Below, one piece after another: positions 8,447 to 26,147 of a stretch of 64,000 nucleotides of DNA (the first letter of the stretch is position 1; every line of letters begins with the position of its first letter). Source of the DNA: Mucilaginibacter rubeus (GTDB taxonomy: Bacteria; Bacteroidota; Bacteroidia; Sphingobacteriales; Sphingobacteriaceae); the NCBI RefSeq assembly GCF_014643835.1, contig NZ_BMKD01000003.1:682001-746000 (forward strand). The letters are read 5' to 3'. Below the pieces are notes generated by a model. The model saw only the letters and a program-made list of their open reading frames with translations. It had not been told where the DNA came from and ran no database searches. The position numbers and the translations under genes were made by a program.

Positions 8447-8447
8447 C

Positions 8448-9149: not shown

Positions 9150-9208
9150 ATCACCTGTTGTAGAGACGCATTATTGACACTTTCTGTAATATGCAGCCAA
9201 CCCCTTAC

Positions 9209-9242
9209 AAAAAGGGTACCTCATTAATTTACCGAGGTACCC
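9209..9242 (-). terminator. Intrinsic terminator of the SDR gene
   Basis: A perfect 9-bp stem, GGGTACCTC (9214-9222) with GAGGTACCC (9234-9242), is followed on the minus strand by TTTTT (9213-9209). It lies just after the stop of the minus-strand SDR gene and in the gap between convergent genes, so it may also stop plus-strand transcription less efficiently. Confidence 0.8.
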
Positions 9243-9264
9243 GACTAATCAAGATGTTTTCCAT

Positions 9265-10029: not shown

Positions 10030-10136
10030 TTTCTTTTTTGTTTTGATACAAAAGTAAAACAGATGGGAGGGGAGTCGTTTTAATAAATCAATCCATTATT
10101 TACAAAATTCAAATAATGGTTAAAATATCGGCGCCT

Positions 10137-10928
10137 TTAATAATCGTACAACTGTGGTTTAAATCTTTTAGCCAGGTAGCCAGTAGCTTTTTCTAAATCG
10201 ATATCAGCTATAATTACGCCAGTTGTGCCGTAAGCCTGGTAAACTAAACAGGTGCCATCCGGTGCTATAACTGAGCTTGCCGATTCGGGGTAAAGCGAAC
10301 CATAATTGGAACTGGCAAAATAGATGGTGTTTTCCAGCGCCCGCATCATCATCGCCTTTTCGTAATAAGGGTTGGTCATGCTACCCCACTCGGTAAGCAG
10401 CACGCCTTCGGTATTACTGCCCGAAAAATGCGGGTGGAAAACGATGTGCGCGCCATTACGCGCCGCCCATCTTACCGATTCGGGATAACGGAACCCTTCG
10501 TGGCAAATGGTAACGCCAAATTTTAAGCCATTTACCTCGAAAATATTTCGTTGTGTGCCCGGCACCCAAATGGCGTCTTCCGATGGGTCTAATTGGTTTT
10601 TAGTTTGATATCCAAGTACCTTGCCGGTTTGGGATATCACATGTGCAATGTTTAAAAGCCCGTCTTCGCTGTACCAATCCATAGGCATAATTACCGCTAT
10701 ATTATTTTCGGCGGCAATCTTGCATACTTCATCCAGCGCCGATTGCAGTATCTCCGGCGATGTTGGCTCCGGATCGGCTATCATACCCGGATATCCAGGT
10801 ATATATGATTCAGGGAAACAGATAACCTCTGCCTGTTGTGACGCTGCATCTTTAATCAGCTTTTCGGCTTGTTGCAGACCGTCATTAATTGATTTCGGAA
10901 AAGGCGGAGTAGCAATGGCTATTTTCAT
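10137..10928 (-). CDS. Carbon-nitrogen hydrolase (nitrilase superfamily)
   Basis: A 263-residue cytosolic member of the nitrilase/amidase superfamily. The catalytic triad is E40 (CFPES), K110 (QTKNQL) and C142 (TICHEGFRYPE). These enzymes hydrolyse amides, nitriles or carbamoyl compounds, and the pattern fits omega-amidase/carbamoylase-type branches more than true nitrilases. Its start is divergent from the alcohol dehydrogenase gene across about 190 bases, so the two may share a regulatory region. Confidence 0.88.
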   Translation of the reverse strand: MKIAIATPPFPKSINDGLQQAEKLIKDAASQQAEVICFPESYIPGYPGMIADPEPTSPEILQSALDEVCKIAAENNIAVIMPMDWYSEDGLLNIAHVISQTGKVLGYQTKNQLDPSEDAIWVPGTQRNIFEVNGLKFGVTICHEGFRYPESVRWAARNGAHIVFHPHFSGSNTEGVLLTEWGSMTNPYYEKAMMMRALENTIYFASSNYGSLYPESASSVIAPDGTCLVYQAYGTTGVIIADIDLEKATGYLAKRFKPQLYDY

Positions 10929-11117
10929 GCGGTGTTAATCTGTATGCTAAATTAAATGATTGCTTTTATCTGTGGTTAATATTTATCCCCTCATGTGTCA
11001 CTTTTTTATTTCAACCCATACTTGGCCGATATTTATAAAATTATCATTGTACATTTGTTATGGAGATCCTTTCCAGACTCAATAAATCATCATTCACACT
11101 ACTTAACGTTTACTACT

Positions 11118-12161
11118 ATGATTGAAACTAAAGCGTATGCCGCGCAAGATGAAAACACACCGCTTGCCCCCTGGACTTTTGAGAGGCGCGAAGTGGGTGC
11201 TCATGACGTGCAGTTTGATATTTTGTACTGTGGCGTTTGCCACTCCGATTTGCACCAGATCAAAAACGACTGGTTCCCCGGCATTTTTCCTATGGTGCCC
11301 GGACATGAAATTGTTGGCCGCGTAGTTAAAGTTGGCGAGCATGTAAAAGGTTTTAAAGTTGGCGACCTTGCCGCTACCGGCTGTTTGGTTGACTCATGTC
11401 GTACATGCGAAAACTGTAAACGCGACCTTGAGCAATATTGCCTCAATGGCAACTCCCAAACTTATAATGGCCTTGAACAGGATCATAAAACACCTACTTA
11501 TGGTGGTTACTCAAACACCATTGTTGTTAATGAGGATTTTGTGCTGCACCTTAAGGAAGGCGTTGATCTGGCCGCCGTTGCCCCGTTGTTATGCGCCGGC
11601 ATTACAACCTACTCGCCGCTAAGGCACTGGAAAGTTGGCAAAGGCCATAAGCTTGCCGTGCTTGGCTTAGGCGGCTTAGGCCACATGGCTGTTAAATTTG
11701 GTGTTGCCTTTGGTGCCGATGTTACCGTATTAAGTACATCGCCTAAGAAAGAAGAAGACGCTAAAAAATTAGGCGCTCACCATTTTGTGGTAACTACCGA
11801 TCCAAAACAGGTTGAAGCAGCTAAAAACTCCTTCGATTTTATTTTGGATACCGTATCGGCCGAGCATGACTTTAACATGTACCTGTCGTTATTACGTACC
11901 GATGGCGTTCATATCTGTGTAGGCGTACCGCCTAAACCAGCTCAGATTGCTGCTTTCAGCTTATTGGGCGGCCGTAAAAGCTTAGCCGGTTCAGGAATTG
12001 GCGGTATTAAAGAAACCCAGGAGATGCTTGATTTCTGTGCCGAAAATAACATTGTTTCGGATATTGAAATGATTGATATCAAGGATATTCACACCGCTTA
12101 TGACCGTATGGAAAAAGGCGATGTGCGTTACCGGTTTGTAATTGATATGGCTACGTTGTAA
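11118..12161 (+). CDS. Zinc-dependent NAD(P)-dependent alcohol dehydrogenase, YahK-like
   Basis: From the ATG at 11118 (MIETKAYAAQD) the product is 347 residues, the normal length of cinnamyl-alcohol-dehydrogenase-like MDR enzymes; the 41 extra codons upstream are unconserved. Catalytic zinc ligands lie in LYCGVCHSDLHQ and VPGHEIVG. The structural zinc is bound by the four cysteines of DSCRTCENCKRDLEQYC. The Rossmann motif is LGLGGLGHMAVK. It likely reduces aldehydes with NADPH. TACATTTG at 11050-11057 resembles a -7 element, but the nearest TTG upstream is 25 bases away, longer than usual. Confidence 0.92.
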   Translation: MIETKAYAAQDENTPLAPWTFERREVGAHDVQFDILYCGVCHSDLHQIKNDWFPGIFPMVPGHEIVGRVVKVGEHVKGFKVGDLAATGCLVDSCRTCENCKRDLEQYCLNGNSQTYNGLEQDHKTPTYGGYSNTIVVNEDFVLHLKEGVDLAAVAPLLCAGITTYSPLRHWKVGKGHKLAVLGLGGLGHMAVKFGVAFGADVTVLSTSPKKEEDAKKLGAHHFVVTTDPKQVEAAKNSFDFILDTVSAEHDFNMYLSLLRTDGVHICVGVPPKPAQIAAFSLLGGRKSLAGSGIGGIKETQEMLDFCAENNIVSDIEMIDIKDIHTAYDRMEKGDVRYRFVIDMATL

Positions 12162-12181
12162 AGTAATTTATAATTGATAAC

Positions 12182-12209
12182 AAAGGCCGTGCGGGAGCAT
12201 GGCCTTTTT
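12182..12209 (+). terminator. Intrinsic terminator of the alcohol dehydrogenase gene
   Basis: AAAGGCCGTGC pairs with GCATGGCCTTT (one G-T pair) around a GGGA tetraloop and runs into TTTTT. It lies 20 bases after the stop codon. Confidence 0.85.
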
Positions 12210-12308
12210 ACTATAGTCATATTTACACCCTTTAAAAGTCGCTTTAGCCCCCTGCATACGGTGAAGTACCGGTTTAATTTTGATATATAAAATATAACCA
12301 CTGATATT

Positions 12309-12869
12309 ATGAGAAACTTAGTATTGTTTATGCACATTTCACTTGATGGTATGGTTGCGCGCACTGATGGCGCTATGGACTGGATCAAAGTGAGCAGCGA
12401 GATGTTTGAGTATGCCAACGCCCGCACACAGGTAGCTGACACCGCCCTATATGGCCGTAAAACCTTTGAAATGATGGATGCCTACTGGCCAACAGCAGCC
12501 AATGGGCCAAACCCCTCAAAGCATACTATTGAACACGCTACATGGTATAATAATACACTTAAGTATGTAGTGTCTGAAACTGCTGCCCGGAAAAATACCG
12601 ATAAGATTAAATTTATCAGTGATGATGTAAAGGCGCGGATTTCAGACCTCAAAAAACAGGAGGGCGGCGAGATCATCATGTTTGGCAGCCCCGGCCTTGC
12701 CCGTTATTTGATGCAGGAAGGATTGATTGATGAATTTTGGCTGTTTGTAAACCCGATAGTGCTTGGTGCCGGTATTCCGCTGTTTCCTAATACCGAGATA
12801 AAGCTCAAACTGGCAAAAAGCACCACTTTTGCCGATGGTGTTCTCGGGGTGCATTATATAAAAGAGTAG
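12309..12869 (+). CDS. Dihydrofolate reductase family protein (RibD C-terminal type)
   Basis: A 186-residue protein of the RibD-C/YyaP-YwjB group, a DHFR-like fold. Visible blocks are LVLFMHISLDGMVARTDGAM, ALYGRKTFEMMDAYWP, EGGEIIMFGSPGLARYLMQ, and DEFWLFVNPIVLGAGIPLF near the C terminus. These proteins are annotated as deaminase/reductase-like, but most have no proven substrate. Only the reductase half is present; there is no deaminase domain. TAATTTTG at 12275-12282 fits a -7 element without a convincing -33 partner. Confidence 0.88.
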   Translation: MRNLVLFMHISLDGMVARTDGAMDWIKVSSEMFEYANARTQVADTALYGRKTFEMMDAYWPTAANGPNPSKHTIEHATWYNNTLKYVVSETAARKNTDKIKFISDDVKARISDLKKQEGGEIIMFGSPGLARYLMQEGLIDEFWLFVNPIVLGAGIPLFPNTEIKLKLAKSTTFADGVLGVHYIKE

Positions 12870-12938
12870 TATTTTGCAGGGAGATATCTTACCGTTATAA
12901 AAAAATCTGCAACCTGAGGCAACGCCTTTGCTAAAATG

Positions 12939-12972
12939 GTAGTAATCATTATGTACACAAACATATTACTAC
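12939..12972 (+). promoter_or_regulatory. Inverted repeat abutting a start codon
   Basis: GTAGTAAT (12939-12946) and ATTACTAC (12965-12972) form an 8-bp perfect inverted repeat with an 18-base spacer. The last base immediately precedes the ATG at 12973. It could be an operator or an RNA hairpin limiting translation initiation of the outer-membrane protein; neither is shown. Confidence 0.45.
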
Positions 12973-13509
12973 ATGAAATTACTATCAAAGTTAACAGCAG
13001 CGGCCCTTGTGACAGGAGCACTGTTTTTTTCAAATACGGTAAAAGCGCAAACTACTCCTGCAAATGCGTTCCGTTTAGGTTTAGGAATTGAAACCGGCTT
13101 ACCTACAGGTGTAGCAAAAATTGGCACTACTTTTACCTTAGGTGGTACAGCCCGTTTGCAATATGGTATAAGCAATAGTTTTGCGCTTACTTATACTATG
13201 GGCGGGTATCATTTTTTTCAGAAAGAAAATCCTGCTACGGGTAAACGCTATCCGAGCTATGGCGAAATCCCTATTAAATTCGGTTTCAAAGAGTTTTTTG
13301 TACCAAGTGTATATGTTGCCGGCGAAGCTGGTATCGCTTACGAAAAACTGGAAGAAGGCTGGGGCCCGCACAGGCTTGATCTTTCGCCTGGTATAGGCTG
13401 GGCCAATAAAACCTGGGATGTAAGTGTACGCTATGAAAACTTTTCGGGCGCTAACCAGGATCATTTTGGTATGGTTGGCCTGCGCTTAGCTTACGGATTT
13501 GCTTTATAA
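12973..13509 (+). CDS. Outer-membrane beta-barrel protein
   Basis: A 178-residue precursor with a cleavable signal peptide (MKLLSKLTAAALVTGALFFS, cleavage about AQT at residue 26). The mature part alternates short amphipathic strands (NAFRLGLGIETGLPTG, FALTYTMGGYHFF, SPGIGWANKTWDVSVRYENF) and ends GLRLAYGFAL, with a near-terminal aromatic/hydrophobic strand typical of porin-like barrels. It is the size of an 8-stranded OmpX/OmpW-like barrel. Function is unknown. An intrinsic terminator follows. Confidence 0.8.
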   Translation: MKLLSKLTAAALVTGALFFSNTVKAQTTPANAFRLGLGIETGLPTGVAKIGTTFTLGGTARLQYGISNSFALTYTMGGYHFFQKENPATGKRYPSYGEIPIKFGFKEFFVPSVYVAGEAGIAYEKLEEGWGPHRLDLSPGIGWANKTWDVSVRYENFSGANQDHFGMVGLRLAYGFAL

Positions 13510-13573
13510 TTTCGCACTTAATGTAACTATTAACTAACAGGCCCCGACTCACCCGGGCACGTTAGGTTGGCTG

Positions 13574-13608
13574 ACCCTCTTTCGGTTATTACCGGAGGAG
13601 GGTTTTTG
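13574..13608 (+). terminator. Intrinsic terminator after the barrel gene
   Basis: ACCCTC (13574-13579) pairs with GAGGGT (13598-13603), with inner pairing CGGT/ACCG, followed by TTTTTGTTT. It separates the barrel gene from the five-gene AAA/VWA operon. Confidence 0.75.
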
Positions 13609-13695
13609 TTTATTTTCGGGTTGACAGCTAATTATTTTATCCTGATTTTAGGAACGAGAAACCTAACCCGTTTTTTTTACTAAATATCACAAGTT

Positions 13696-15006
13696 TTGCA
13701 GCTAACAGAAGATCAGATATACGCTCTCGCACCTGATGAAGCTTCAAAAATAGCAGGTCGTGATTTGGCTAACCCGGCCAAATGGGTAAGCAAAGGTATT
13801 AGTGAAGAAGCCCTTTGGGGCGAATGCCAGGGCAGCGGCAGCAAACCTTACCAAACTCAGGTTGATCTTGGCGCTATCGCCTTTAAATGTTCATGCCCCA
13901 GTCGTAAATTTCCATGTAAGCATGGCTTAGGCTTAATGCTTTTATGTGAGAGGGAACCAGGCTTATTTGCCAAATCAACAATGCCTGCCTGGGTAAGCGA
14001 CTGGATAAACAAACGAGCCGAAAAAGAAGAAAAAAAAGTTGAAAAGGCGGCCGAAAAATCTGTAGATGAAAACGCTCAGGCTAAACGTGTACAGGCACGT
14101 GAACAAAAAGTAAGCGCAGGGATAGCCGAGCTAATGGTTTGGATCAAGGATATTGTACGCGGCGGAATTTTAACCATCCCCGAAAAAACGCCGGCTTACT
14201 GGGATAATATGGCCCGCCGTATGGTTGATGCCCAGGCATCGGGATTGGCTGGTATGGTGAGGAACCTTGGCGCTACCAACTTTTGGAACGACGGCTGGCA
14301 AAGTGGCTTTATAGATAAATTACTCCAATTATATTTAATTGCAGAGGGGTACAATAACATTCAAAATATTGACCCGGATTTGCAGCAGGATTTACGCACT
14401 GTCATAGGTTTCACCACCAACCAGGAAGAGCTGCGGGCGCAAACAGGTGTAAGTGATACCTGGCTTGTTATTGGAAAGGAAAGCCGCGATGAGCAGCAAC
14501 TGACCATTGAGCAAAACTGGCTTTACGGTTTAAAAACCAACAGTTATGCGCTGGTGCTGCAATTTACGGTTAAAGGGCAATTCCCGCCGCTTAACTTTTC
14601 GCCGGGGATGTACCTGGATGCTACCCTGGTGTATTTCCCGTCGGCCCTGCCGTATCGTGCTATCGTTAAGGATTATAATATCATAAGGCAAATCGATAAC
14701 GTTAATATAAAAACATTTACAGGCTGGCAGCAAGTTGCCGGTTACGAAACTATACTAAACAGCCGTTTGCCATTTCGCAGTGAAATGCCCCTTGTTATAG
14801 CGTCGCTAACACCGGTTTTCTACCAAAAGCAATGGTGGCTACAGGATAGCGAAGGCTGCCTCTGCAAAATATCAGCAAGTTATACCAACATCTGGCAACT
14901 GATTGCCATAAGCGGAGGCGACCCGGTAAATATGGCCGTCATCGGTAGAGAAAATAAATATCGCCCGATTGGCGTTTGGCATCAAAATAATTACAAAAGT
15001 ATCTGA
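13696..15006 (+). CDS. SWIM zinc-finger protein, first gene of the AAA/VWA operon
   Basis: The 436-residue product starts at a TTG (13696); an in-frame stop lies five codons upstream and no ATG is nearby. A SWIM zinc finger is visible near the N terminus: C65 and C67 in FKCSCPSRKFPCKHGLGLML, with C74 and H76 completing CxCx6CxH. SWIM domains bind nucleic acid or protein. A Lys/Glu-rich helical stretch (about residues 105-135) joins it to a long C-terminal region of unknown fold. Its stop overlaps the next start (TGATG), implying translational coupling. The zinc finger suggests a targeting subunit of the complex; this is inference. Confidence 0.85.
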   Translation: MQLTEDQIYALAPDEASKIAGRDLANPAKWVSKGISEEALWGECQGSGSKPYQTQVDLGAIAFKCSCPSRKFPCKHGLGLMLLCEREPGLFAKSTMPAWVSDWINKRAEKEEKKVEKAAEKSVDENAQAKRVQAREQKVSAGIAELMVWIKDIVRGGILTIPEKTPAYWDNMARRMVDAQASGLAGMVRNLGATNFWNDGWQSGFIDKLLQLYLIAEGYNNIQNIDPDLQQDLRTVIGFTTNQEELRAQTGVSDTWLVIGKESRDEQQLTIEQNWLYGLKTNSYALVLQFTVKGQFPPLNFSPGMYLDATLVYFPSALPYRAIVKDYNIIRQIDNVNIKTFTGWQQVAGYETILNSRLPFRSEMPLVIASLTPVFYQKQWWLQDSEGCLCKISASYTNIWQLIAISGGDPVNMAVIGRENKYRPIGVWHQNNYKSI

Positions 15007-16496
15007 TGAAGGCCTGGGAAAGTATCATAAACACCGCAATGCTGGGTACTGATAAACCTACACCTGCTATTGCTGATTTGCCGGAAGAAGTAGCCCTGAT
15101 CGCTAATGCGATAGAGGCCTCAGCAGGCTTAGATAAAGAAGAACGCTACCTGCAAAAAGCTGCTGTGATCTACAATTACAGGCAATCGGGTTTTATACCA
15201 TTTCAAAAAAATGATCTGCCGGCTAATAAAGCGCTTGCAGAAACAAAACCGTACTGTTCACCCGAAGCTGCCGGGATTTTGAACGCCATATTGGGCGAGG
15301 AGAACGATCAATTACTACAATTGTGGCTAATGCAATGTTGTAAATCAGGGCAATTACTAATGCCTGATGTGTTGCCGGTCGTATTTGAAAAAGCACAAAA
15401 GGAGATGGTATTGCGCAAAGCTGTTATTGAATGCAGCGGTAACAGGGGAGTTTGGCTTAGTAAAATGAACCCTGCGTGGAACTGGTTTACTACTATAGCC
15501 GATGAGGAACTATGGCAAATGGGTACGTCGGCCCAGCGTTCAGAAATATTGAAAAGCTTAAGACTGAATGAGCCCGCCAAAGCTTTAGAATGGCTGCAGC
15601 AAACGTGGGAGCAGGAGAATGCAGCCGGTAAATTGGAATTGCTTAAAGCCATGAAAGTGAATAGTAATGCTAATGACCTGCCATGGTTGGAGGGCTTGCT
15701 CAACGAAAAAGGGCAAAAGGTTAAAGATGAAGCTTTGGCCCTGCTCAAAAGTATTTCTGGTTCGTCGGTTGTTAAACAGTATCAGCAGTTGCTACGTGAA
15801 TCTGTATCGCTAAAAAAAGAAAAGGCCTTATTAGGTTTAACTACTAAAATTTCCATCCAAATAAAACTTCCCGCCGTAGTTGACGAAAGCATCTACAAAT
15901 CGGGCATCGAAAAATTATCGGGGCCTAAAAGTACGGTAACTGACGAAAACTATGTTATTTATCAGCTCATCAGCAGCGTGCCGCCGGCGTTTTGGGAAGA
16001 TCAGTTTGAAGCAACGCCCATTCAGATAGTTGAATATTTTGAAAAATATGCACCTGCTATGGTACCGGCTTTGGCCAATGCGGTGGCAAAGTTTGGGCAA
16101 AAGAATTGGGTGCCGTTTTTTCTCGGGCAAAGTATGTTCTACCCGGATTTTGTTGAAATGCTAAGCGGCAGAGAACAGGAAAAATACCTGCTGAAAGCCT
16201 TGGGCAATGATCCGCAAAATACAATTGCTCAGGCCATCCGCATTAGTGATGAATGGGGCACCGAGTTTGCGGTTTCGGCCTTGCTAAAAATGGCTAACTG
16301 GCCTTACGAATATAATCGTGGTTTTTTTACCCGGTATATCAGCCTGATCCCTGTCGAGGCTTTGAAACATGTCGAAAACATAACATCACAGCAGGTTAAC
16401 CTCCAGCCAACCTGGGACAAAACCCGCAATCACTTAATTAATTTACTCAACTTAAAACAGCAAACGCTTAAAGCCTTTAACGCTAAAAAACTTTAA
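15006..16496 (+). CDS. DUF5691-like helical repeat protein
   Basis: A 496-residue, mostly alpha-helical protein without signal peptide or membrane segment. The opening WESIINTAMLGTDK resembles the family-defining start of DUF5691 proteins, which are encoded beside SWIM and MoxR genes. The middle (EWLQQTWEQENAAGKLELLK, and repeated LL/AL helices) looks HEAT/ARM-like, suited to a scaffold or substrate adaptor. No catalytic motif is visible. It sits between the SWIM gene (one-base overlap) and the AAA ATPase gene (one-base gap). Confidence 0.72.
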   Translation: MKAWESIINTAMLGTDKPTPAIADLPEEVALIANAIEASAGLDKEERYLQKAAVIYNYRQSGFIPFQKNDLPANKALAETKPYCSPEAAGILNAILGEENDQLLQLWLMQCCKSGQLLMPDVLPVVFEKAQKEMVLRKAVIECSGNRGVWLSKMNPAWNWFTTIADEELWQMGTSAQRSEILKSLRLNEPAKALEWLQQTWEQENAAGKLELLKAMKVNSNANDLPWLEGLLNEKGQKVKDEALALLKSISGSSVVKQYQQLLRESVSLKKEKALLGLTTKISIQIKLPAVVDESIYKSGIEKLSGPKSTVTDENYVIYQLISSVPPAFWEDQFEATPIQIVEYFEKYAPAMVPALANAVAKFGQKNWVPFFLGQSMFYPDFVEMLSGREQEKYLLKALGNDPQNTIAQAIRISDEWGTEFAVSALLKMANWPYEYNRGFFTRYISLIPVEALKHVENITSQQVNLQPTWDKTRNHLINLLNLKQQTLKAFNAKKL

Positions 16497-16497
16497 C

Positions 16498-17574
16498 ATG
16501 TCACAGATATTACGTCAGCATGCAGAACAATTATTTGCACACGAACTGGAAGAATTGAAAAAGCAGGACGGTGATAAGCGTCCGGCCAACTGGATACTTT
16601 CTCCTCAATCGGTAGTAACCTACCTGGTTGGCGGAAAGCTGAAGAATGGCTTTGAGGTGTCGCCAAAATATATTGGCAACCGCCGCTTAATGGAAATAGC
16701 GGTAGCTACGCTCACAACAGATCGTGCCCTGTTATTATACGGTTTGCCCGGTACAGCAAAAAGCTGGGTGAGTGAACATTTGGCAGCGGCTGTAAGCGGC
16801 GATTCAACCATGATTATCCAGGGAACAGCCGGTATAAGTGAAGAGGCCATTCGCTACGGCTGGAACTATGCCCGCCTGATAGCACAAGGCCCATCGCCGG
16901 ATGCGCTGGTAGAAACGCCTGTAATGCGCGGGATGAAAGATGGTAAAATAGTTCGTTTAGAAGAGCTAACCCGTATTGGCGCCGACGTGCAGGATACACT
17001 GATCACCATTCTTTCTGAAAAAACACTGCCCGTACCTGAGCTTAATATCGAAGTGCAGGCCGTTAAAGGTTTTAATATCATAGCCACAGCCAATAATCGT
17101 GATAAAGGTGTAAATGAATTATCAAGCGCGTTAAAGCGCCGTTTCAATACCGTTATCCTTCCCTTGCCTGATTCGGTGGAAGAGGAGATAGACATCGTAC
17201 GCCGCCGGGTTGAAAGCTTTGAAAAAGTAATGGAACTGCCGGCCGAACCGCCGGCATTGCAGGAGATCCGCCGGATAGTGACCATCTTCCGTGAACTTCG
17301 TGCAGGCGTTACGCTTGATGGCAAAACCAAGATCAAAGTGCCGTCAGGTACCTTAAGTACTGCCGAAGCTATCTCCGTTGTGAACAGCGGTTTATCAATG
17401 GCTGCCTATTTTGGCGATGGACAATTGAAAGCGGCTGATCTTGCCGCGGGCATCATCGGTTCGGTAATTAAAGACCCGGTGCAGGATAAACTGGTTTGGC
17501 AGGAATACCTGGAAACTGTAGTAAAACCACGTACCGATTGGGCCGACATTTACCGTGCCTGCCGCGATCTGTAA
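16498..17574 (+). CDS. MoxR-type AAA+ ATPase
   Basis: A 358-residue single-module AAA+ ATPase of the MoxR class. Walker A is GLPGTAKS (residues 82-89), with K88 contacting nucleotide. Sensor 1 lies in IATANN (195-200) and the arginine finger in KRRF (213-216). The Walker B position reads IVRLEEL (151-157), with Glu where the usual first Asp stands, a deviation to note. MoxR ATPases act as chaperones that work with VWA partners, and a VWA gene is in this operon. It likely remodels or loads a target using ATP, in a complex with the flanking gene products. Confidence 0.9.
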   Translation: MSQILRQHAEQLFAHELEELKKQDGDKRPANWILSPQSVVTYLVGGKLKNGFEVSPKYIGNRRLMEIAVATLTTDRALLLYGLPGTAKSWVSEHLAAAVSGDSTMIIQGTAGISEEAIRYGWNYARLIAQGPSPDALVETPVMRGMKDGKIVRLEELTRIGADVQDTLITILSEKTLPVPELNIEVQAVKGFNIIATANNRDKGVNELSSALKRRFNTVILPLPDSVEEEIDIVRRRVESFEKVMELPAEPPALQEIRRIVTIFRELRAGVTLDGKTKIKVPSGTLSTAEAISVVNSGLSMAAYFGDGQLKAADLAAGIIGSVIKDPVQDKLVWQEYLETVVKPRTDWADIYRACRDL

Positions 17575-17592
17575 TCAAAAAACCTTAAGCCA

Positions 17593-19857
17593 ATGGCAGT
17601 ACATATTTTAGGCATAAGGCACCACGGGCCGGGTTCGGCGCGTAATGTGAAAGCTTTTCTGGAAACGGTTAGGCCCGATATTGTTTTGGTTGAGGGGCCG
17701 CCGGAAGCTGATGCCATGCTGCAATGGGTAAGCAACGAAGGTTTGAAACCACCTGTAGCGCTGCTTTGCTATCAGCCGGATGACCCCCAACGCTCGGTGT
17801 TTTATCCCTTTGCCGATTTCTCGCCCGAATGGCAGGCAATTCTTTATGCCCGCAGGCAAAATATCCATGTGCGTTTTATGGATCTCCCTGCCGGTAACCA
17901 GATGTTTGTTGAAAAGGAGCAAAAGGTTGTTGAACAACAACAAGAGCCGGATACAGTTCACATCAATAGCGAAGCACAAAGCCTTGAGCAACTCTATAAA
18001 AGTCCGATAAGTTACCTGGCAGATGCTGCCGGCTTTGCCGACGATGAAAAATGGTGGGAGCATACGTTTGAGTACCGCGATAATAACGATGAGGTTTTTG
18101 ATGCGGTATCTGAAGCTATGCAGGCACTCCGCGAGAGTTTTCCCAAAAAGGACAAAAAGCTTGAACAGATGCGCGAAGCATACATGCGTCGCACTATCCG
18201 CCAGGCCGAAAAGGAGATGTTTCATACCATAGCCGTAATTTGTGGAGCATGGCACGCACCAGCTTTACAGGGAAAATCATCGCAAAAAGATGATAACGAA
18301 ATACTGAAGGGGCTTCCAAAAGTAAAAACAGAGTGCACCTGGATTCCATGGACTTTTAACCGTTTAAGCTTCCGTAGCGGTTACGGTGCCGGTATCAATT
18401 CGCCGGGGTGGTACAACCATATCTGGAACCATCCGCTTGATGATGGTACCCTGTGGATGGCCAAGGTGGCACAACTTTTCCGTAAGCAGCAGATGGATAC
18501 CTCCGTTGCCCATATTATTGAAGCGGTAAGGTTGGCCGGTGCACTCGCTTCACTGCGGGGTTTGCCCAAAGTAGGGTTAGAGGAACTGAATGAGGCCACG
18601 CTGAGCGTACTTTGTAACGGCGAGAGCATTTTGCTAAAACTGGTACATGACGAATTAATAGTTGGCCACCAGATAGGCGAGGTGCCGGTTGAGATTCCCA
18701 AACCGCCGTTGCAACTCGATATCGAAAAACAACAAAAGAAATTAAGGCTGCCCGCAACAGCCGATTACAAAGATTATACACTCGACCTGAGGAAAGATAC
18801 CGACCTGGAGCGGAGTATCCTCCTGCACCGCCTGCAATTACTGGGCATTAATTGGGGCAGGCAGCAATACACCAGCGGTAAGGGTACTTTTAAAGAGCAA
18901 TGGCGCCTGCAATGGGACCCCGGCTATTCGGTGGAGATTATTGAACGCGGCAATTTGGGCAATACTGTAGCTGAAGCGGCCGCGAATAGCGTCCTCAACC
19001 AGGCAAAAGAAGCAAAGGAACTGAAAGTTATAGGCGATCTGCTTGAAAAAACGATTCCGGCAGAATTGCCGGGAGCCATTGAAGCGTTGATCAGTCAGCT
19101 TAATAATCTGGCTGCGGCCTCTGCCGACGTTATCGAACTGATGGAAGTAGTGCCCGGCCTGATAACCGTGGCAAGATATGGCAATGTACGCAAAACAGAT
19201 GCCGAATTGGTGATCAGCATTATCAATAGCATTATTACCCGCGTTTGTATCAGTTTGCCCAATGCCTGTATCGCTATTGATGAAGATGCCTCTCAAAAGC
19301 TGCTGGAACTGTTTTTTAAACTGAACGATGGCATTAACCTATTGCAGGATACGGGCATAATTAACATGTGGCAGCAAACGCTGTTGACTATAGCAGCTAA
19401 TAAAAACACCTCGGCGGTTATAGGAGGATATAGTACCCGTTTGCTGCATGACGCCCGTAAATTGGAGGGCGACCAACTGATGCAGTATTTCAGTTTTGCT
19501 ATGTCATCGGCCACGGCCCCGGTCATCGCCGCAGCCTGGCTCGAAGGCTTTTTGAAAGGCAGCGGTACTTTATTGTTGCTTGATCAGGACCTTTGGCAAG
19601 TGATCGACAATTGGGTAGCCAGTCTTGCCGGTGAGGTTTTTATGCAAGTGCTGCCTTTACTGCGCCGCACCTTTGCCAATTTTACCAATCCTGAAAGGAG
19701 AAAGCTTGGCGAAAAGGCCAGATCCGGCGGTGGGACGGGGCATCAGCATACAAACATCAGCGCTAATTTTGATGTCGAAAGAGCTAAGCAAGGTTTGCCG
19801 GTTATTATGCAATTATTGGGTTTAACCATAAATATTAACGACACAAATGGAAATTGA
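17593..19857 (+). CDS. DUF5682-like protein with ChaN/TraB-type motifs
   Basis: A 754-residue cytosolic protein. The N-terminal region carries motifs like those of the ChaN/TraB/EreA-type hydrolase superfamily: HILGIRHHGPGSARNV (residues 4-19), IVLVEGPPEAD (30-40) and, later, CGAWHAPAL (217-225). The conserved His and Glu suggest a metal-dependent or Glu/His-based active site; the activity is inference and unproven. The C-terminal half is helical with many Leu-rich segments. The last ~40 residues contain a Gly/His stretch (SGGGTGHQHTN). It overlaps the VWA gene by 11 bases. It is the probable effector or enzyme of the five-gene operon. Confidence 0.75.
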   Translation: MAVHILGIRHHGPGSARNVKAFLETVRPDIVLVEGPPEADAMLQWVSNEGLKPPVALLCYQPDDPQRSVFYPFADFSPEWQAILYARRQNIHVRFMDLPAGNQMFVEKEQKVVEQQQEPDTVHINSEAQSLEQLYKSPISYLADAAGFADDEKWWEHTFEYRDNNDEVFDAVSEAMQALRESFPKKDKKLEQMREAYMRRTIRQAEKEMFHTIAVICGAWHAPALQGKSSQKDDNEILKGLPKVKTECTWIPWTFNRLSFRSGYGAGINSPGWYNHIWNHPLDDGTLWMAKVAQLFRKQQMDTSVAHIIEAVRLAGALASLRGLPKVGLEELNEATLSVLCNGESILLKLVHDELIVGHQIGEVPVEIPKPPLQLDIEKQQKKLRLPATADYKDYTLDLRKDTDLERSILLHRLQLLGINWGRQQYTSGKGTFKEQWRLQWDPGYSVEIIERGNLGNTVAEAAANSVLNQAKEAKELKVIGDLLEKTIPAELPGAIEALISQLNNLAAASADVIELMEVVPGLITVARYGNVRKTDAELVISIINSIITRVCISLPNACIAIDEDASQKLLELFFKLNDGINLLQDTGIINMWQQTLLTIAANKNTSAVIGGYSTRLLHDARKLEGDQLMQYFSFAMSSATAPVIAAAWLEGFLKGSGTLLLLDQDLWQVIDNWVASLAGEVFMQVLPLLRRTFANFTNPERRKLGEKARSGGGTGHQHTNISANFDVERAKQGLPVIMQLLGLTININDTNGN

Positions 19858-20989
19858 ACCGGAGCACCTGCGCAAATGGCGGTTAATACTGGGCGGTAAT
19901 CAAAATGAAGGCACCGGATTTAGCCTCGATGATGCCGACCTTAAAGTTGACCGCACACTTGAAGCTTTATATGACAGCGACAGAACCGGAGGCCTCGGTG
20001 TATCATCACCGAATGTAAGCCGTTGGCTGGGGGATATCCGTACCTTCTTCCCATCAAGCGTAGTACAGGTAATGCAGCAGGATGCATTAAAGCGCCTGAA
20101 CCTGACCCAAATGCTGTTTGAAAAGGAGATGTTGGAAAATGTAGAGCCAGATGTTCACCTGGTAGCAACTTTGATGACATTGAGCCGCGTTATTCCCGAT
20201 AAAACAAAAGATACCGCCAGGCAGGTAGTACGTAAAGTTGTTGACCAACTGGTAAAAAAGTTAGCCGAGCCCACGCGCCAGGCCATAACCGGTAGTTTAA
20301 ATCGTAGTACCCGCAATACAAGGCCGCGGCATAATGAAATAAACTGGGGGGCAACTATTCTTAAAAACCTTAAGCATTATCAACCCGAATATCAAACCAT
20401 TATTCCCGAAACAAGGATTGGTTACGGTCGTAAGCGCTCATCATTAAAGGATGTGATCCTCTGTCTTGACCAAAGCGGATCGATGGGATCATCAGTGGTT
20501 TATTCGGGGATTTTTGGAAGCGTTATGGCTTCTATCCCAGCCATAAAAACTAAAATGGTGGTTTTTGATACGGCTGTAGCCGATTTAACCGAAGAGTTAA
20601 CCGACCCGGTTGAGTTATTATTCAGCGTGCAATTAGGTGGTGGCACGGATATCAATGCAGCTTTAACATATTGCCAGCAGATAGCTCCCCGGCCCACGGA
20701 TACCGTGTTGGTGCTCATTACCGATCTTTACGAAGGAGGTAACGTTGCCGAAATGCGCCGTCGTGCGGTAGAACTGGTTGCGGCAGGTGTGCAATTGGTA
20801 GTATTGCTTGCTTTAAGCGATGACGGCTCTCCATCGTATGATCATGGCAATGCACAGTTCCTGGCCGATATGGGGGTGCCCATTTTTGCCTGCACACCCG
20901 ATAAATTTCCCGATCTGATGGCCGCCGCGCTCACTAAACAGGATATTGGTATGTGGGCGGCCAGGGAAGACCTTATTATAAAAAAGTAA
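19847..20989 (+). CDS. CoxE-like VWA domain protein
   Basis: A 380-residue protein with a C-terminal von Willebrand A domain. The MIDAS motif DQSGS is at residues 208-212 (VILCLDQSGSMGSSV). The remaining metal-site elements are visible as GGGTDINAAL and LVLITDLYEGG. The N-terminal ~190 residues (WRLILGGNQNEGTGFSL onward) are helical and contain a DVHLVATLMTL segment. VWA proteins pair with MoxR ATPases to deliver clients or metals. The ATG at 19847 overlaps the preceding gene. Translation past its TAA would continue in frame for 42 more codons with protein-like composition (see 20990-21118). Confidence 0.88.
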   Translation: MEIEPEHLRKWRLILGGNQNEGTGFSLDDADLKVDRTLEALYDSDRTGGLGVSSPNVSRWLGDIRTFFPSSVVQVMQQDALKRLNLTQMLFEKEMLENVEPDVHLVATLMTLSRVIPDKTKDTARQVVRKVVDQLVKKLAEPTRQAITGSLNRSTRNTRPRHNEINWGATILKNLKHYQPEYQTIIPETRIGYGRKRSSLKDVILCLDQSGSMGSSVVYSGIFGSVMASIPAIKTKMVVFDTAVADLTEELTDPVELLFSVQLGGGTDINAALTYCQQIAPRPTDTVLVLITDLYEGGNVAEMRRRAVELVAAGVQLVVLLALSDDGSPSYDHGNAQFLADMGVPIFACTPDKFPDLMAAALTKQDIGMWAAREDLIIKK

Positions 20990-21118
20990 AGGATTGGCGA
21001 TTTTACCGATAACCCACCCACCTATACGCTCGATACTTTATCAAAAGTATTACGGTTAGGCAGGCTGGAACAATTTTATAGTTTGATAGATGCTGTTTGC
21101 TTACCAGCTAAACTTTAA
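20990..21118 (+). pseudogene. Open in-frame continuation after the VWA stop codon
   Basis: Directly after the VWA TAA the same frame stays open for 42 codons to a TAA at 21116-21118. The translation is protein-like (it includes DNPPTYTLDTLSKVLRLG, then RLEQFYSLID). There is no ATG. It could be a former C-terminal extension lost by a nonsense mutation, a readthrough product, or chance. The 3' end overlaps the terminal codons of the convergent GH39 gene, which argues for caution. Confidence 0.25.
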
Positions 21119-22780
21119 AAGAGCCACCCCTTGCCTTGGTAACAATACAGTGGCACCTGCCAGCCCTGATTTAGCCTGCAGCGTAACCTGTTTGCCAAAC
21201 TGTTGTAATTGCCCTGCTTTTTCAAGTTCCTTAATTTGCGCAGCTGTAGGTTTTTGCGGTGAACCCATCTTTTTCCACACTTCGTAGGCATTGCTATGCT
21301 CTTCATCAATGCGGTATTGAGTTAGTTTTACAAAGGTGGGAGGTAGGTTTTCTATCCTGATCTTTACGGTTTTCCCTGCATCGTGCAGGTCATCATCATG
21401 ATAGTTCCACAGCAATACGGTCATTTCTTTTTTATCTGCGGCTGCCAAAGCACCGATATCTGTATTATTTCCCCTGATGCTTGAATCGGCCACGGTTTTA
21501 AGCGAATACATCTGGTCGCCGGTTACTTTCAGGCGTTTGCCTTTCATCATGCCCAGCATCCGGAAAATGTTAAGTACCGGCTTATCAACTCCGTTTGTAG
21601 CCAAATCGCGGAACCCATAAAACCAGGGCTGGTTTTCAAACTCGAACGACCATGATACGGAGCCCATGAAGTTTACACCTAATGAGTCGGCCAGTTGATA
21701 CTCGCGGGCAATAGAAGCCGCCGTATAGCTCGAATACATGGTGCCGTTACGATAGGCATTTGACGGATTGGTAGCCATACCGCAGGCCGCGCAACCTTCC
21801 GGATCCGATTCGCCTATTACTATCGGGGTGTTTTTAGTTTCGGGATATGATGCTACAATTTTAAAGCCTTCTCTGATATCGCGGATCTGCGGGGCCATGT
21901 TCATGCGCACCCGCCCATTGATCAGCGTTGGCTGCCCTTTAGCATGGAAAGAGATCACATCAATAGGTGAACCTATTTTGCCTGTTGCGTAATTGGTATC
22001 AGCAATACAATGTTTAATAAATGCGTTCAGGAATTTCATTCCGCCAGGGCTCGAGCCGCCTGCAACTTCCGGTCCGCCCACGTGCGCGGTAGGCAGGGCG
22101 CGTTTTACACCATGGGCAGCATAATCGTATAGTTTAAAGAACTCTTTCATAGTACCTTTCCAGTAGCCTATGTTTGGTTCGTTCCACACTTCCCAGTACC
22201 AGCTTTCAACCTCGGCCTGGCCGTAGCGCTGTACACAATGCTTTACCCATTGATAAATAAGCTCTTCCCATTTATTGTAATCTTTGGGAGGATAAGCCCA
22301 GCCGGTATAAACATCATCATAGTTATCGCCGGGTTTCCAGTAATGGCGATAAGGTTTGGGGTGGGTTGACAAGGCCTCGGGCATAAAACCTATCTGGGCA
22401 TAAGGTTTCATACCCAGTTTAACGTAAGTGTCAAATATGCTGTCAACCAGGTGCCAGTTATAAATAGGTTTGCCGCTGGCATCCTCAGTATAGGCATTGG
22501 TTGATCCCCACTTTAACGCGGCTGTACCATCGCCGGTGGTAAGCAGGTTGTGCACACGCATGCGTACCGGTACCGGGCTCAAAGCGGCCAACTCCGACAA
22601 TAGTTTACGGCCATCCTTCATGTAGGTATAGTTAGGCTCGTCGTGACCAAACCATGCCCAAAAGGGGTACATATCGCCAATTTTATCATTTAGGCTGATG
22701 GCGATATTGGCCTGGTTCTGGGCAAAAATACGGCCGCTGATAAATAATAAAAGGAAGGAGATAAGTTTGATGGTCTTCAT
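21101..22780 (-). CDS. GH39-like glycoside hydrolase (beta-xylosidase type)
   Basis: A 559-residue exported enzyme (signal peptide MKTIKLISFLLLFISGRIFA). It has the clan GH-A layout of GH39 xylan 1,4-beta-xylosidases: acid/base E201 in WEVWNEPNIG and a probable nucleophile E324 in VIGESDPEG. A C-terminal beta domain (from about residue 440, MTVLLWNYHDDDLHDAGKTV) is also typical. It probably releases xylose or a related sugar in the periplasm. It stands alone, outside an obvious SusCD locus, and is convergent with the VWA operon. Confidence 0.86.
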   Translation of the reverse strand: MKTIKLISFLLLFISGRIFAQNQANIAISLNDKIGDMYPFWAWFGHDEPNYTYMKDGRKLLSELAALSPVPVRMRVHNLLTTGDGTAALKWGSTNAYTEDASGKPIYNWHLVDSIFDTYVKLGMKPYAQIGFMPEALSTHPKPYRHYWKPGDNYDDVYTGWAYPPKDYNKWEELIYQWVKHCVQRYGQAEVESWYWEVWNEPNIGYWKGTMKEFFKLYDYAAHGVKRALPTAHVGGPEVAGGSSPGGMKFLNAFIKHCIADTNYATGKIGSPIDVISFHAKGQPTLINGRVRMNMAPQIRDIREGFKIVASYPETKNTPIVIGESDPEGCAACGMATNPSNAYRNGTMYSSYTAASIAREYQLADSLGVNFMGSVSWSFEFENQPWFYGFRDLATNGVDKPVLNIFRMLGMMKGKRLKVTGDQMYSLKTVADSSIRGNNTDIGALAAADKKEMTVLLWNYHDDDLHDAGKTVKIRIENLPPTFVKLTQYRIDEEHSNAYEVWKKMGSPQKPTAAQIKELEKAGQLQQFGKQVTLQAKSGLAGATVLLPRQGVALLKFSW

Positions 22781-23012
22781 TCAGGTAGTTTGGTGATTTA
22801 TAAGGAGTACAGATCAAACATAGGTAATTTTATTTATTGTAAAAAGAACAATTAAAATAAGGGGCTGGCCTTTCAATCAATTTTAAATCACATACAACAT
22901 ATTGAATATTATTTACGTTAACAGCGTGTTAATTTATTGTTTACGCGCTTCAGAAATTCTACAGAATTAAATTGTATAATTGTGCTTACCAGCGCTTAAT
23001 AAGGGGGATTCT

Positions 23013-23849
23013 TTGCAAAAGTTTAGGTTTTATTTTATTTCGATGCTATTGGCAGCATCATCTTCGCTGCCTGTTTATGCCCAGGTTAAGGATACATTAC
23101 AAAAAGTTGCCGTAAAGAAGGATTCCTTGCAGAAAGACTCTGCAAGGAATATCCTGACATTGCCCGATACGGTTAAACACCTTCAAAGTAAGTTTCCGTC
23201 ATACATACCACCGGCGGCTTTTATCACTTATGGCCTGCTATCGTTTAAAGTAGGATTTATACGTAATATTGATTATCGCGTACGGAATGATATGAACAAG
23301 GATCATCCCGGCTTCCATACCAAGGTTGATAACTACATGCAATACGCGCCTATCGTGTCTGTTTATGCGCTTAACCTGGCTGGTGTTCATGGTAAAAATA
23401 CATTTATCGACCGTACTATGCTGCTCGTGCTTTCCGAAGCCATATTTGCCGGTACCACTTTTGGCTTAAAACGTGTTACCCACCGTGAGCGGCCCGATGG
23501 CTCTGATAAGTTTTCGTTCCCTTCAGGCCATACCGGTAACGCCTTTGTTTCTGCCGAGTTTATGGCGCAGGAGTACGGCGACCGCTCGCCCATATACGGC
23601 GGCGTTGGTTATGGCTTTGCTACCACTACAGCTATTTTGCGTGTATATAACAACAAGCATTGGTTTAGCGACATCATAGCAGGAGCAGGTTTTGGGATCT
23701 TATCAACAAAAGCGGCTTATTACCTGTACCCGCTTATCCGTAATGGCATATTCCGTGGGGGGAATGAGAAAGGAAAAAACAACAACTCCTTATTGTTGCC
23801 AACTTACCAGGACGGAAGGGTTGGATTAACTTTCGCCAAGAGTTTTTAA
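23013..23849 (+). CDS. PAP2-family phosphatase, exported
   Basis: The best start is TTG at 23013, preceded by AAGGGGGA five bases away; it yields a proper signal peptide (MQKFRFYFISMLLAASSSLP, ending VYAQ). The track-long form from 22980 has no such signal. The PAP2 phosphatase motifs are present: KRVTHRERPDG, SFPSGHTGNAF and NKHWFSDIIAG. The family removes phosphate from lipid or sugar phosphates, e.g. undecaprenyl pyrophosphate or LPS groups, at the periplasmic side. The mature protein is about 255 residues with limited hydrophobic helices. An intrinsic terminator follows. Confidence 0.88.
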   Translation: MQKFRFYFISMLLAASSSLPVYAQVKDTLQKVAVKKDSLQKDSARNILTLPDTVKHLQSKFPSYIPPAAFITYGLLSFKVGFIRNIDYRVRNDMNKDHPGFHTKVDNYMQYAPIVSVYALNLAGVHGKNTFIDRTMLLVLSEAIFAGTTFGLKRVTHRERPDGSDKFSFPSGHTGNAFVSAEFMAQEYGDRSPIYGGVGYGFATTTAILRVYNNKHWFSDIIAGAGFGILSTKAAYYLYPLIRNGIFRGGNEKGKNNNSLLLPTYQDGRVGLTFAKSF

Positions 23850-23874
23850 ACGACTGATCTTATATTTATAATGT

Positions 23875-23908
23875 ACAACCACCTTAGTATTAGGGTGGTT
23901 GTTTTGTT
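23875..23908 (+). terminator. Intrinsic terminator after the PAP2 gene
   Basis: ACAACCACC (23875-23883) pairs perfectly with GGTGGTTGT (23894-23902), followed by TTTGTTTT. Confidence 0.85.
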
Positions 23909-23943
23909 TTAGAGTTTTTTTTTAATAAAAAATAACTTAGCTA

Positions 23944-23974
23944 TTGCAACGTACGTTTTTGGTACGTACCTTTG
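23944..23974 (+). promoter_or_regulatory. Promoter with overlapping palindromic operator for blaI-like gene
   Basis: TTG (23944-23946), 20 bases, then TACCTTTG (23967-23974) is a near-perfect Bacteroidota promoter. An inverted repeat, GTACGT (23951-23956) and ACGTAC (23964-23969), lies between and into the -7 element, the expected site for the BlaI/MecI-type repressor encoded downstream. The ATG at 23979 begins 5 bases after the -7 element, so the mRNA may be leaderless. Confidence 0.7.
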
Positions 23975-23978
23975 GTTT

Positions 23979-24380
23979 ATGAGTTTGTTTAAAAAGGATA
24001 TTACTGCTGATTTAACGCCAACCAAAACAGAAATGGACGTTTTGCGGGTGTTGTGGCAGCATGGCCCGTCGACGGTGAGGTTTGTGCATGATAAGCTTAA
24101 TGAACAAAAGGAAGCGGTAATTTACACCAGTACCCTTAAGCTGATGCAGGTAATGAAAGAGAAGGGGATGCTTGAACGTGACGAAACCAATATGAAGCAC
24201 ATTTACAGCGCCGCAGTTGAAGAAGACAAGGTGAAAGGGAACATGCTTGGGCGCTTTGTTGATTCGATGTATAATGGTTCGCCGAGCGATTTGATGGTAG
24301 CCCTGCTGGGCAACGACAAAACATCGGCCGAAGAACTCAGAAAAATAAAAGAACTGCTCAAAAAAATGGACGATCAATAA
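23979..24380 (+). CDS. BlaI/MecI/CopY-family transcriptional repressor
   Basis: A 133-residue winged-helix regulator. The DNA-binding N-terminal half (LTPTKTEMDVLRVLWQHGPS then VRFVHDKLNEQKEAVIYTST) matches the BlaI/MecI family, and the C-terminal helices (about 80-133) form the dimerisation part cut by the partner protease in known systems. It probably represses its own operon through the GTACGT-N7-ACGTAC palindrome at 23951-23969. The BlaR1-like sensor gene follows 15 bases downstream. No beta-lactamase gene is in the window, so the signal need not be an antibiotic. Confidence 0.92.
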   Translation: MSLFKKDITADLTPTKTEMDVLRVLWQHGPSTVRFVHDKLNEQKEAVIYTSTLKLMQVMKEKGMLERDETNMKHIYSAAVEEDKVKGNMLGRFVDSMYNGSPSDLMVALLGNDKTSAEELRKIKELLKKMDDQ

Positions 24381-24395
24381 TTAAACTTTACAGAT

Positions 24396-25988
24396 ATGTA
24401 CCTGCTCCTTAACACCAACACCATTTCCCACAGCCTGATACAGGCTTTTAGCTGGATGCTGATCCATTCGCTATGGCAGGGGATGTTGCTGGCGGTTATG
24501 AGCGCTGTGGTGATGCTGCTTACAAAAAAAACAAGCGCGGCAGTAAGGTACAACCTGGTACTTGTACAGTTTTTATTATTTGTTGGGGCCTGCCTGTTCA
24601 CTTTTGTTTGGGAATGGAACAAGCAGCCGCAGCAAAATATGGTACAGTTTGGTGATGCGATGGGCGGCAGGGCATCAGCTTTATTGAGCCTTAATGCTGA
24701 TGGGATCCGGGTTTTTGCCAGTACCTGTATCGGTTATTTTACAGCCAACGCGCCAATGGTTGTGCTGCTGTGGTTTGTGTTTTTCCTGTTTCGGTCGGTA
24801 CGGATGATGCGCGGGCTCATGTTTATCCATAATGCCAAACACAGGCAGGTATCCGAACCTGTTGAATATTGGAAAAACAGGGTTGAGCTGCTTTGCGAAA
24901 AACTGCAATTGAAACGGGCTGTTCGGCTGCTTGAATCGGGTTATGTGAAAATACCCATGGTTATCGGGCACCTGAAACCGGTAATCCTGATCCCGGCGGG
25001 TTTATTGGCAGGGCTGCCGCCCGAACAGGTGGAAGCTGTACTGCTGCACGAACTGGCCCACATCCGCAGGCATGATTATATCGTTAACTTTTTACAAACC
25101 GTTGCCGAAACCGTATTCTTCTTTAATCCCGGCTTATTGTGGATCTCGTCCCTGCTTAGGGATGAGCGGGAAAACTGCTGTGATGATATCGCCCTCGCCC
25201 AAACAAAAAACAAACGCGATTTTATACAGGCATTGATCAGCTTTAAAGAACATTCGCTTTACGGTGCAAATTATGCGGTTGCATTTCCTGGTAAAAAGAA
25301 CCAGTTGTTGCAAAGGGTAAGCCGTATCCTTGGTAATAAAAACAAAACGGTAAGCCAGGGTGATAAAGTATTTTTGATAAGCGGTGTTGTTATCCTTTCG
25401 GCAATAATAGCTACGGCCACTATCGCGCAGATCCGGGAAGTTAATAATCCCGGTAATGATAAAGCTTATGTGTATAAACAGGAACGGCATATCACACCAT
25501 CTGCAGGTATACAGCCGGTTGCACCCGTTAAATCTGTCGATAAACCAAAACACCCAAAGCACAGAAACATTGCAGTAGCTCAGAAGCCTGTTGCTGCAAA
25601 TGAAAATGTGATTATAGCTAATACTGAGCCGCGTTCTCCGCAGGAGCAGCTTGAAGCTGATGCGAAGCTCGCAAAACAACAGGCCGAAAAAGAAAGCCAG
25701 CAAGTTTCGGCCGATAAAACCGAATATAACCGCGGGCAGGAACAGGCCCGCCGGGATCAGGAACATGCCAAAGTAGACCAGGACCAGGCTCGTCGTGACC
25801 AGGAGCAGGCCAAACGTGATCAGGAACAAGCCATGCGGGATCAGGCGCAGGCTAAACTTGACCAGGAACAGGCCGAAAGGGACCAGGTACAAGCTAAGCG
25901 CGATCAGGAGCAGGCGCGCCGTGACCAGGCACAGGTAAGTAAACCCAAAACAGAACCTATAAAAAGCAAAGTAAGCGTTCAGAATTAA
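24396..25988 (+). CDS. BlaR1-like M56 family metallopeptidase with C-terminal DQxQAxx repeats
   Basis: A 530-residue membrane protein. About four hydrophobic helices surround the zinc protease motif HELAH (H218-H222; [13 protein letters not shown]). This matches the BlaR1/MecR1 M56 peptidase that cleaves the cognate repressor. Instead of a penicillin-binding sensor domain, the region after the last helix (about residue 345) is a polar stalk leading to about ten copies of a seven-residue DQxQAxx repeat (residues 447-516), highly charged and presumably a long helix. Coupling to the repressor gene supports a signal-relay role; the ligand is unknown. Confidence 0.88.
25734..25942 (+). repeat. 21-base coding repeat array in the M56 gene
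   Basis: About ten imperfect 21-base units encode DQxQAxx heptads (e.g. [14 protein letters not shown]). Codon variation between units (GATCAG/GACCAG) shows the array is old enough to diverge synonymously. The same unit occurs in the next gene. Confidence 0.85.
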
Positions 25989-26147
25989 GCAGGTACATTT
26001 CTTATTTGGTTCGTAAAGCAGGAGTGCACCCCGTTTTATCGGCCGGCCTATGCAGTAATTAGTCATGTTAACAATCAATTTTTAACCTGCCCCTGGGCGG
26101 AAGGAAAATTTATTGCCCAAATTTTAAACTTTTAAATCGACAGAAAA

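Follow-up and report, generated by a model that had tools for sequence, protein, structure and literature searches.

Five neighbouring genes in the genome of the soil bacterium Mucilaginibacter rubeus (Bacteroidota), encoding a SWIM zinc-finger protein, a DUF5691 protein, a MoxR AAA+ ATPase, a DUF5682 protein and a VWA_CoxE protein, raise the question of whether they form one system and, if so, whether that system is new and what it serves. They lie in this order and on the same (+) strand at positions 13696-20989 of the stretch analyzed here (64,000 nucleotides of contig NZ_BMKD01000003.1, hereafter the window). The initial annotation had put them forward as an undescribed system, a label that does not survive comparison: the operon matches ddrTUVWX of Deinococcus by gene names and order, and the YehL subfamily of MoxR proteins by sequence. 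It is a real, conserved and transferable unit, already seen under other names, and we hold with moderate confidence that it encodes a transferable five-gene MoxR-VWA remodelling machine of the ddrTUVWX type, used in genome stress.

The recurrence of the gene order carries the case for a unit. A genome scan with an alignment of DUF5682 returned at least 580 confirmed relatives, of which the best 80 loci were used, a sample that leans to close relatives; together with 12 further Bacteroidota loci and that of Escherichia coli, this gave 93 loci, whose genes were assigned by means of profiles made from the window proteins. SWIM>DUF5691>MoxR>DUF5682>VWA is the order in 61 of them, in some cases with other genes inserted, and in 60 of 92 once a duplicate is removed (L015 and L026 are one genome). 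Because the order recurs to this extent, the arrangement is not a product of chance, and the view of the five genes as one conserved unit is borne out. The ordered loci are spread over nine phylum-level groups (Bacteroidota, Cyanobacteriota, Melainabacteria, Chloroflexota, Planctomycetota, Verrucomicrobiota, Acidobacteriota, Pseudomonadota and Thermodesulfobacteriota). The 32 other loci include two with the same order and a split gene, two in which SWIM and DUF5691 are fused, several at contig ends and nine with DUF5682 alone. In Allochromatium warmingii (L101:7829-9843), a C-5 cytosine DNA methylase gene and an uncharacterised 356-aa gene stand between MoxR and DUF5682.

Within the window, open reading frames and Pfam families confirm the close packing that had been claimed, with overlaps or gaps of at most 18 bases; the successive junctions measure -1, +1, +18 and -11 bases. 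A scan of the five proteins against NCBIfam gave nothing above its cut-offs, and the DUF5691 protein has a HEAT_2 match in Pfam below the cut-off. The MoxR-VWA pair also stands as first described, with the Walker A (GLPGTAKS), ATAN and KRRF motifs of the ATPase intact and a complete metal ion-dependent adhesion site (MIDAS) in the VWA protein (DQSGS at 208, GGTD at 265, ITD at 291). Among homologues, Walker A is retained in 66 of 68 and ATAN in 68 of 68 MoxR sequences, and the MIDAS DxSGS in 68 of 69 VWA sequences. Since the motifs of both proteins are kept, the pair should act as a remodelling motor. A study of NorQ-NorD (PMC9976466) describes that couple as a MoxR-VWA remodelling pair; here, a MoxR hexamer and the VWA protein would form an ATP-driven pair in which the latter plugs the ring, as proposed for NorQ-NorD.

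Table 1. The five genes of the operon in the window, with their products and best-supported domain matches.
Product	Position	Strand	Details
SWIM zinc-finger protein (DdrT-like)	13696-15006	+	436 aa, TTG start; PF04434 22.5 bits, cut-off 19.6
DUF5691 helical-repeat protein (DdrU-like by position)	15006-16496	+	496 aa; PF18944 7.5e-89
MoxR AAA+ ATPase, YehL type (DdrV-like by position)	16498-17574	+	358 aa; AAA_5 PF07728 6.5e-34
DUF5682 protein (YehM-like; DdrW-like by position)	17593-19857	+	754 aa; PF18934 1.1e-270
VWA_CoxE protein (YehP-like; DdrX-like by position)	19847-20989	+	380 aa; PF05762 9e-46

A second line of evidence comes from the partnership of DUF5682 and DUF5691. Among 395 Bacteroidota genomes, DUF5682 is present in eight, that of the window included, and DUF5691 in nine at E <= 0.001, seven of the nine above the curated cut-off. 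All eight DUF5682-positive genomes carry DUF5691 (in G202 with a match below the curated cut-off), and the ninth DUF5691 genome, G055, where DUF5682 is absent, also has its match below that threshold. The co-occurrence is significant by Fisher's test (6.6e-16, or 2.9e-14 without the window genome). Because linkage explains most of it, the split cases matter: two of the eight genomes hold the two genes at separate places, and for those alone the test gives 4e-5. Searches of 15 genomes with an incomplete locus located DUF5691 in 13, in three of them already beside DUF5682. Thus, 10 of the 12 genomes without an adjoining DUF5691 carry it elsewhere, and the search for a distant copy found none in the genomes of L058 and L068. 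Taken with the recurrent order, this leaves little of the prospect that homologues would be scattered singly. In the 10 distant regions, SWIM adjoins DUF5691 in five and MoxR does so in three. Some split loci may be contig breaks (e.g. G026), and in at least seven split genomes (G434, G436, G437, G440, G441, G078 and G218) the DUF5691 block is flanked by unrelated genes; among these, DUF5691 travels with SWIM in G436, G437, G440 and G441, and with MoxR in G434 and G436. SWIM and DUF5691 are moreover fused in three loci (L074, L095 and a Hymenobacter plasmid), and the DUF5691 protein is probably a direct partner of the SWIM protein. The fusions and split loci therefore point to two likely sub-complexes, SWIM with DUF5691 and DUF5682 with VWA, with MoxR between them.

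The initial annotation had also read ChaN/TraB-like motifs into the DUF5682 protein, and this reading is supported by its invariant residues. In 63 sequences, R9, H10, E34, E79, D97, R194, E195, G218 and H221 are invariant and G7 nearly so. Members of the EreA/ChaN/TIKI-TraB superfamily share a signature of two GxxH motifs and a conserved Glu, and DUF5682 has both motifs (G7IRH10 and G218AWH221) and the Glu (E34). Support from structure is less firm: the model (mean predicted local distance difference test score, pLDDT, 89.9) has fold matches to EreC and HopBA1, and Foldseek returned nothing at E <= 0.001 for this or for the SWIM protein model; solved relatives of DUF5682 were sought by sequence, with none below E 0.1. 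An N-terminal EreA/ChaN/TIKI-like (EreC/HopBA1-like) domain followed by a helical-repeat region is thus predicted. In the SWIM protein, the finger is formed by C65xC67...C74xH76, and the model predicts a helical middle and then two OB-like (oligonucleotide/oligosaccharide-binding) barrels at the C-terminus. Literature searches found no paper on DUF5682 and, among the matches listed, no mention of DUF5691.

The SWIM region resembles that of ZSWIM8, of the AGO2-miRNA ligase complex, and this raises the idea of a SWIM/DUF5691-centred machine for RNA or ribosome quality control. Published work has midasin, a further MoxR-VWA couple, acting on ribosome assembly, and reports an interaction of a molR1 deletion with lepA. 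That interaction, however, concerns only a gene that neighbours the E. coli cluster, and there is no translation gene among the recurrent linked clusters; we consider such a role very improbable.

The distribution of the unit is patchy and bears the marks of transfer. The closest named relative among the matches listed is Mucilaginibacter gossypii (DUF5682 97% identical; DNA 94.7% over 18.7 kb), and only four of 25 genomes of the genus Mucilaginibacter have DUF5682. Three congeners (L016, L017, L027) match the DNA of the window along the operon alone, to within 61 bases, the match of L017 spanning 13695-20989, and in L014 and L026 the flanks are shared as well. An empty site is seen in the one-contig genome G014, where the window flanks 4725-13607 and 21101-25947 lie only 26 bases apart and the operon is absent, and the operon is missing from the same site in G447. 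A search for terminal repeats of the five-gene unit found none that were convincing. A DUF5682 tree built by a quick method places the Mucilaginibacter sequences within a set of 24 rows (support 98) that is mostly Chitinophagaceae, a placement that suggests horizontal transfer. A search of 72,556 plasmid records found DUF5682 in 36; among four plasmid regions examined, those of Deinococcus and Rhizobium hold all five genes, that of Hymenobacter the fused form, and for that of Methylosinus the VWA gene is not listed in an incomplete gene table. Plasmid records with DUF5682 relatives include eight from Escherichia and two from Proteus. The single hit in 50,697 phage records, a distant DUF5682 relative (27.6%) at MT835988.1:10644-12758, sits in an unannotated 14-kb 'Bacteriophage sp.' from human faeces that may be a mis-sorted bacterial contig. 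Mucilaginibacter pineti (L027:8378-13400) has an incomplete copy, with a 172-aa piece of DUF5691 and full-length MoxR, DUF5682 and VWA, and no SWIM gene was found at that locus. Beyond the operon, the window is repeat-rich at 25727-26800, covering the end of a BlaR1-like peptidase gene (typed by eye) and the gene that follows; these Gln/Arg-rich repeats (EQARRDQ...) give many matches within and between relatives.

A patchy, transferable and plasmid-borne unit, some of whose hosts are filamentous or multicellular, invites comparison with anti-phage or conflict systems, akin to the MoxR-vWA ternary ones. To assess this, 129 of 415 flanking proteins (at least 150 aa, within 9 kb) from 50 Bacteroidota loci were set against 129 of 248 control proteins from 20 regions, dropping proteins above 1500 aa from both sets. 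At 1e-10, 23 PADLOC families (PADLOC-DB 2023) are represented in the flanks, against two (mad2, mad3) in the controls, a table of members per family from which distinct defence proteins cannot be counted. The flank matches, a weak signal found in relatives, include prokaryotic Argonautes (pAgo), restriction enzymes, PDC-M60C and a PN effector. However, pAgo models account for many of the 23 families, and a single protein may match several of them; the DndA/SspA and DrmC matches, by our own reading, resemble housekeeping enzymes (cysteine desulfurases and phospholipase-type synthases). There may be a weak lean towards defence in the flanks of relatives. The operon itself offers nothing comparable: the best whole-protein PADLOC match of its five products reaches E 4e-4 (IetA, residues 67-99 around the P-loop), and nine flanking proteins of the window have none at 1e-5. 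Neither is there a variable effector. VWA reading frames keep to 374-419 aa (5-95%, n=70), the domain match in the window protein stops at residue 355 of 380 with no C-terminal effector beyond it, and the architecture is rigid, whereas conflict systems, as published, vary their effectors. The defence role that the initial annotation had entertained is therefore not supported, and we deem it unlikely.

The strongest functional lead comes instead from Deinococcus. A regulon study (PMC5552922) describes Deide_18730-18690 of D. deserti as a five-gene operon with a radiation/desiccation response motif (RDRM), names it ddrTUVWX without assigning a function, and places it in the IrrE/DdrO regulon. 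Radiation induced the SWIM gene at one end more than 10-fold and the VWA CoxE-like gene at the other more than 5-fold. Going by the columns of its table as we read them, the operon is present with an RDRM in D. gobiensis, D. maricopensis and D. peraridilitoris and absent from D. radiodurans, D. geothermalis and D. proteolyticus. The window operon corresponds to ddrTUVWX by names and order. A plasmid of D. taeanensis carries SWIM-DUF5691-AAA-DUF5682-VWA in the window order, plus one small extra gene, with identities to the window of 33% (SWIM), 68% (MoxR), 38% (DUF5682) and 53% (VWA); its DUF5691 is known from NCBI annotation, and BLASTP with the window DUF5691 gave no match at 1e-3. This copy has no RDRM within three mismatches, and its best RDRM-like site (12/17, equalled by one further site within 20 kb) overlaps the promoter. 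Searches of the literature for ddrTUVWX or Deide_18730 returned only PMC5552922 among the matches listed.

The counterpart in E. coli K-12 is the cluster yehL-yehM-yehP-yehQ, which shares the order MoxR-DUF5682-VWA with the window. The window MoxR protein aligns with YehL at 39.4% over 360 aa (8e-76) and with RavA only at E 0.004 in a set of 14 proteins; DUF5682 aligns with YehM at 30.5% over 495 columns, 61% of the protein (1.7e-44), and VWA with YehP at 34.2% over 365 aa (1.3e-76). On these alignments, the three window proteins are homologues of YehL, YehM and YehP. YehM covers the whole Pfam DUF5682 model, to residue 715, and forms a very long branch in the DUF5682 tree. With YehQ, only the SWIM zinc finger aligns, and profile comparison gives a probability of 1%. 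A profile search of seven yeh proteins from the E. coli cluster detected no DUF5691, and the E. coli control genome gave none either.

Neighbouring genes extend this picture. A DUF4132 gene accompanies the operon in 13 of 92 loci, that of E. coli included, and in 12 it lies within 75 bases or inside the operon. It is a tightly linked recurrent neighbour that spans genera (checked with Pfam in L034, L037 and YehI); upstream of its yehL, E. coli has yehI together with the pseudogene yehH. We regard DUF4132 (YehI) as an optional sixth gene; an obligatory partnership is ruled out, none of the eight DUF5682 genomes among the 395 having DUF4132. The remaining close neighbours recur within Chitinophaga only. 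In four Chitinophaga loci (L036, L041, L045, L050), a gene of about 1555 aa, presumably a DUF4011-type helicase, lies on the opposite strand just downstream of VWA, one base from the operon end. Near the E. coli cluster lies yehF, which we take to be molR and which encodes a WGR domain. Published tables include yehF among SOS genes (values up to 1.14) and molR among the genes under LexA control, and the DUF4132 and WGR genes of D. radiodurans are strongly up on DdrO depletion (PMC8533742). The DNA-damage link outside Deinococcus is nonetheless thin. LexA-type boxes (five patterns) upstream of 69 operons are not enriched beyond chance, which weighs against a general role in genome stress. The LexA-like site ahead of yehF (L001 450-465) does not by itself exceed chance, eight matches being found where 6.1 are expected. 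A DNA-damage role is favoured mainly by the regulation seen in Deinococcus, and our claim does not extend to direct repair.

The same neighbourhoods bear on another account of the motor, in which it is a cofactor-insertion or maturation chaperone for a metalloenzyme or respiratory complex, after the manner of CoxD-CoxE, NorQ-NorD and RavA-ViaA, and the response to radiation would stem from the repair of oxidised proteins, not of DNA. The VWA protein does belong to the CoxE family. However, no single metalloenzyme occupies a fixed place near the operon among 20 neighbour clusters of at least four loci, short-chain dehydrogenase-like genes (typed by eye) appearing in seven of 92 loci at varied distance and on either strand, and SWIM and DUF5691 are not known to have a place in established maturation pairs. 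In published work on MoxR proteins, the characterised MoxR-VWA pairs serve mostly to mature metalloenzymes or complexes, and a yehM mutation has been reported in copper-evolved E. coli. Titles of cited papers indicate that molR was originally named for molybdate use, a link that moeA/moeB expression in D. radiodurans does not bear out. On balance, we find this explanation rather unlikely.

For the preferred reading, a remodelling machine used in genome stress, a working scheme may be outlined. DUF5682, paired with VWA, would contribute a hydrolase-like domain, probably metal-dependent and carried on a helical-repeat arm, and SWIM with DUF5691 would form a second sub-complex for substrate recognition, perhaps of a nucleoprotein. 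Under genome stress, the machine might then take apart, or else activate, a protein complex that stands in the way of recovery. Recognition by SWIM-DUF5691, hydrolysis by DUF5682 and action on a damage-related complex are what we infer from these parts. A bolder version, which we think improbable, is that of a mobile, damage-induced disassembly machine uniting recognition, ATP-driven remodelling and hydrolysis in one transferable unit: SWIM/OB and DUF5691 would mark stalled or damaged nucleoprotein, MoxR-VWA would pull it apart and DUF5682 would cut hydrolytically. If so, E. coli yehLMPQ with yehF/yehI would be a divergent, SOS-linked cousin. Within the searches made, several points are new: the connection between ddrTUVWX and the YehL family, the predicted domains, the evidence from fusions and split loci, the vacant site in a relative and the association with DUF4132. 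They join names that had been kept apart in the literature found (ddrTUVWX, the YehL MoxR subfamily with yehL-yehM-yehP, and Pfam DUF5682 and DUF5691). For an operon that belongs to a well-studied radiation regulon, experiments can now start from predicted partners, sub-complexes and catalytic residues, and E. coli K-12 is open to the same tests.

Set against known systems, the operon resembles the MoxR-vWA ternary conflict systems with VMAP and iSTAND in joining MoxR and vWA to further conserved partners and in its patchy spread (PMC7159879). It differs from them in that no operon protein matches a VMAP or iSTAND family in Pfam, bpMoxR falling below the cut-off. With RavA-ViaA, NorQ-NorD and CoxD-CoxE it shares a MoxR AAA+ protein and a MIDAS VWA partner in one operon, yet RavA (E 0.004) and ViaA (E 0.048) are only remote matches to the window pair. 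To our knowledge, none of these couples has a SWIM, DUF5691 or DUF5682 partner. YehL represents one of seven MoxR subfamilies in a published classification (PMC3893208), and its cluster in E. coli places the SWIM gene yehQ last, whereas in the window that gene comes first. Control by RDRM and DdrO is a Deinococcus trait, whereas the window copy sits in Mucilaginibacter; the likeness to ddrTUVWX lies in five genes with SWIM at one end and a VWA CoxE-like gene at the other.

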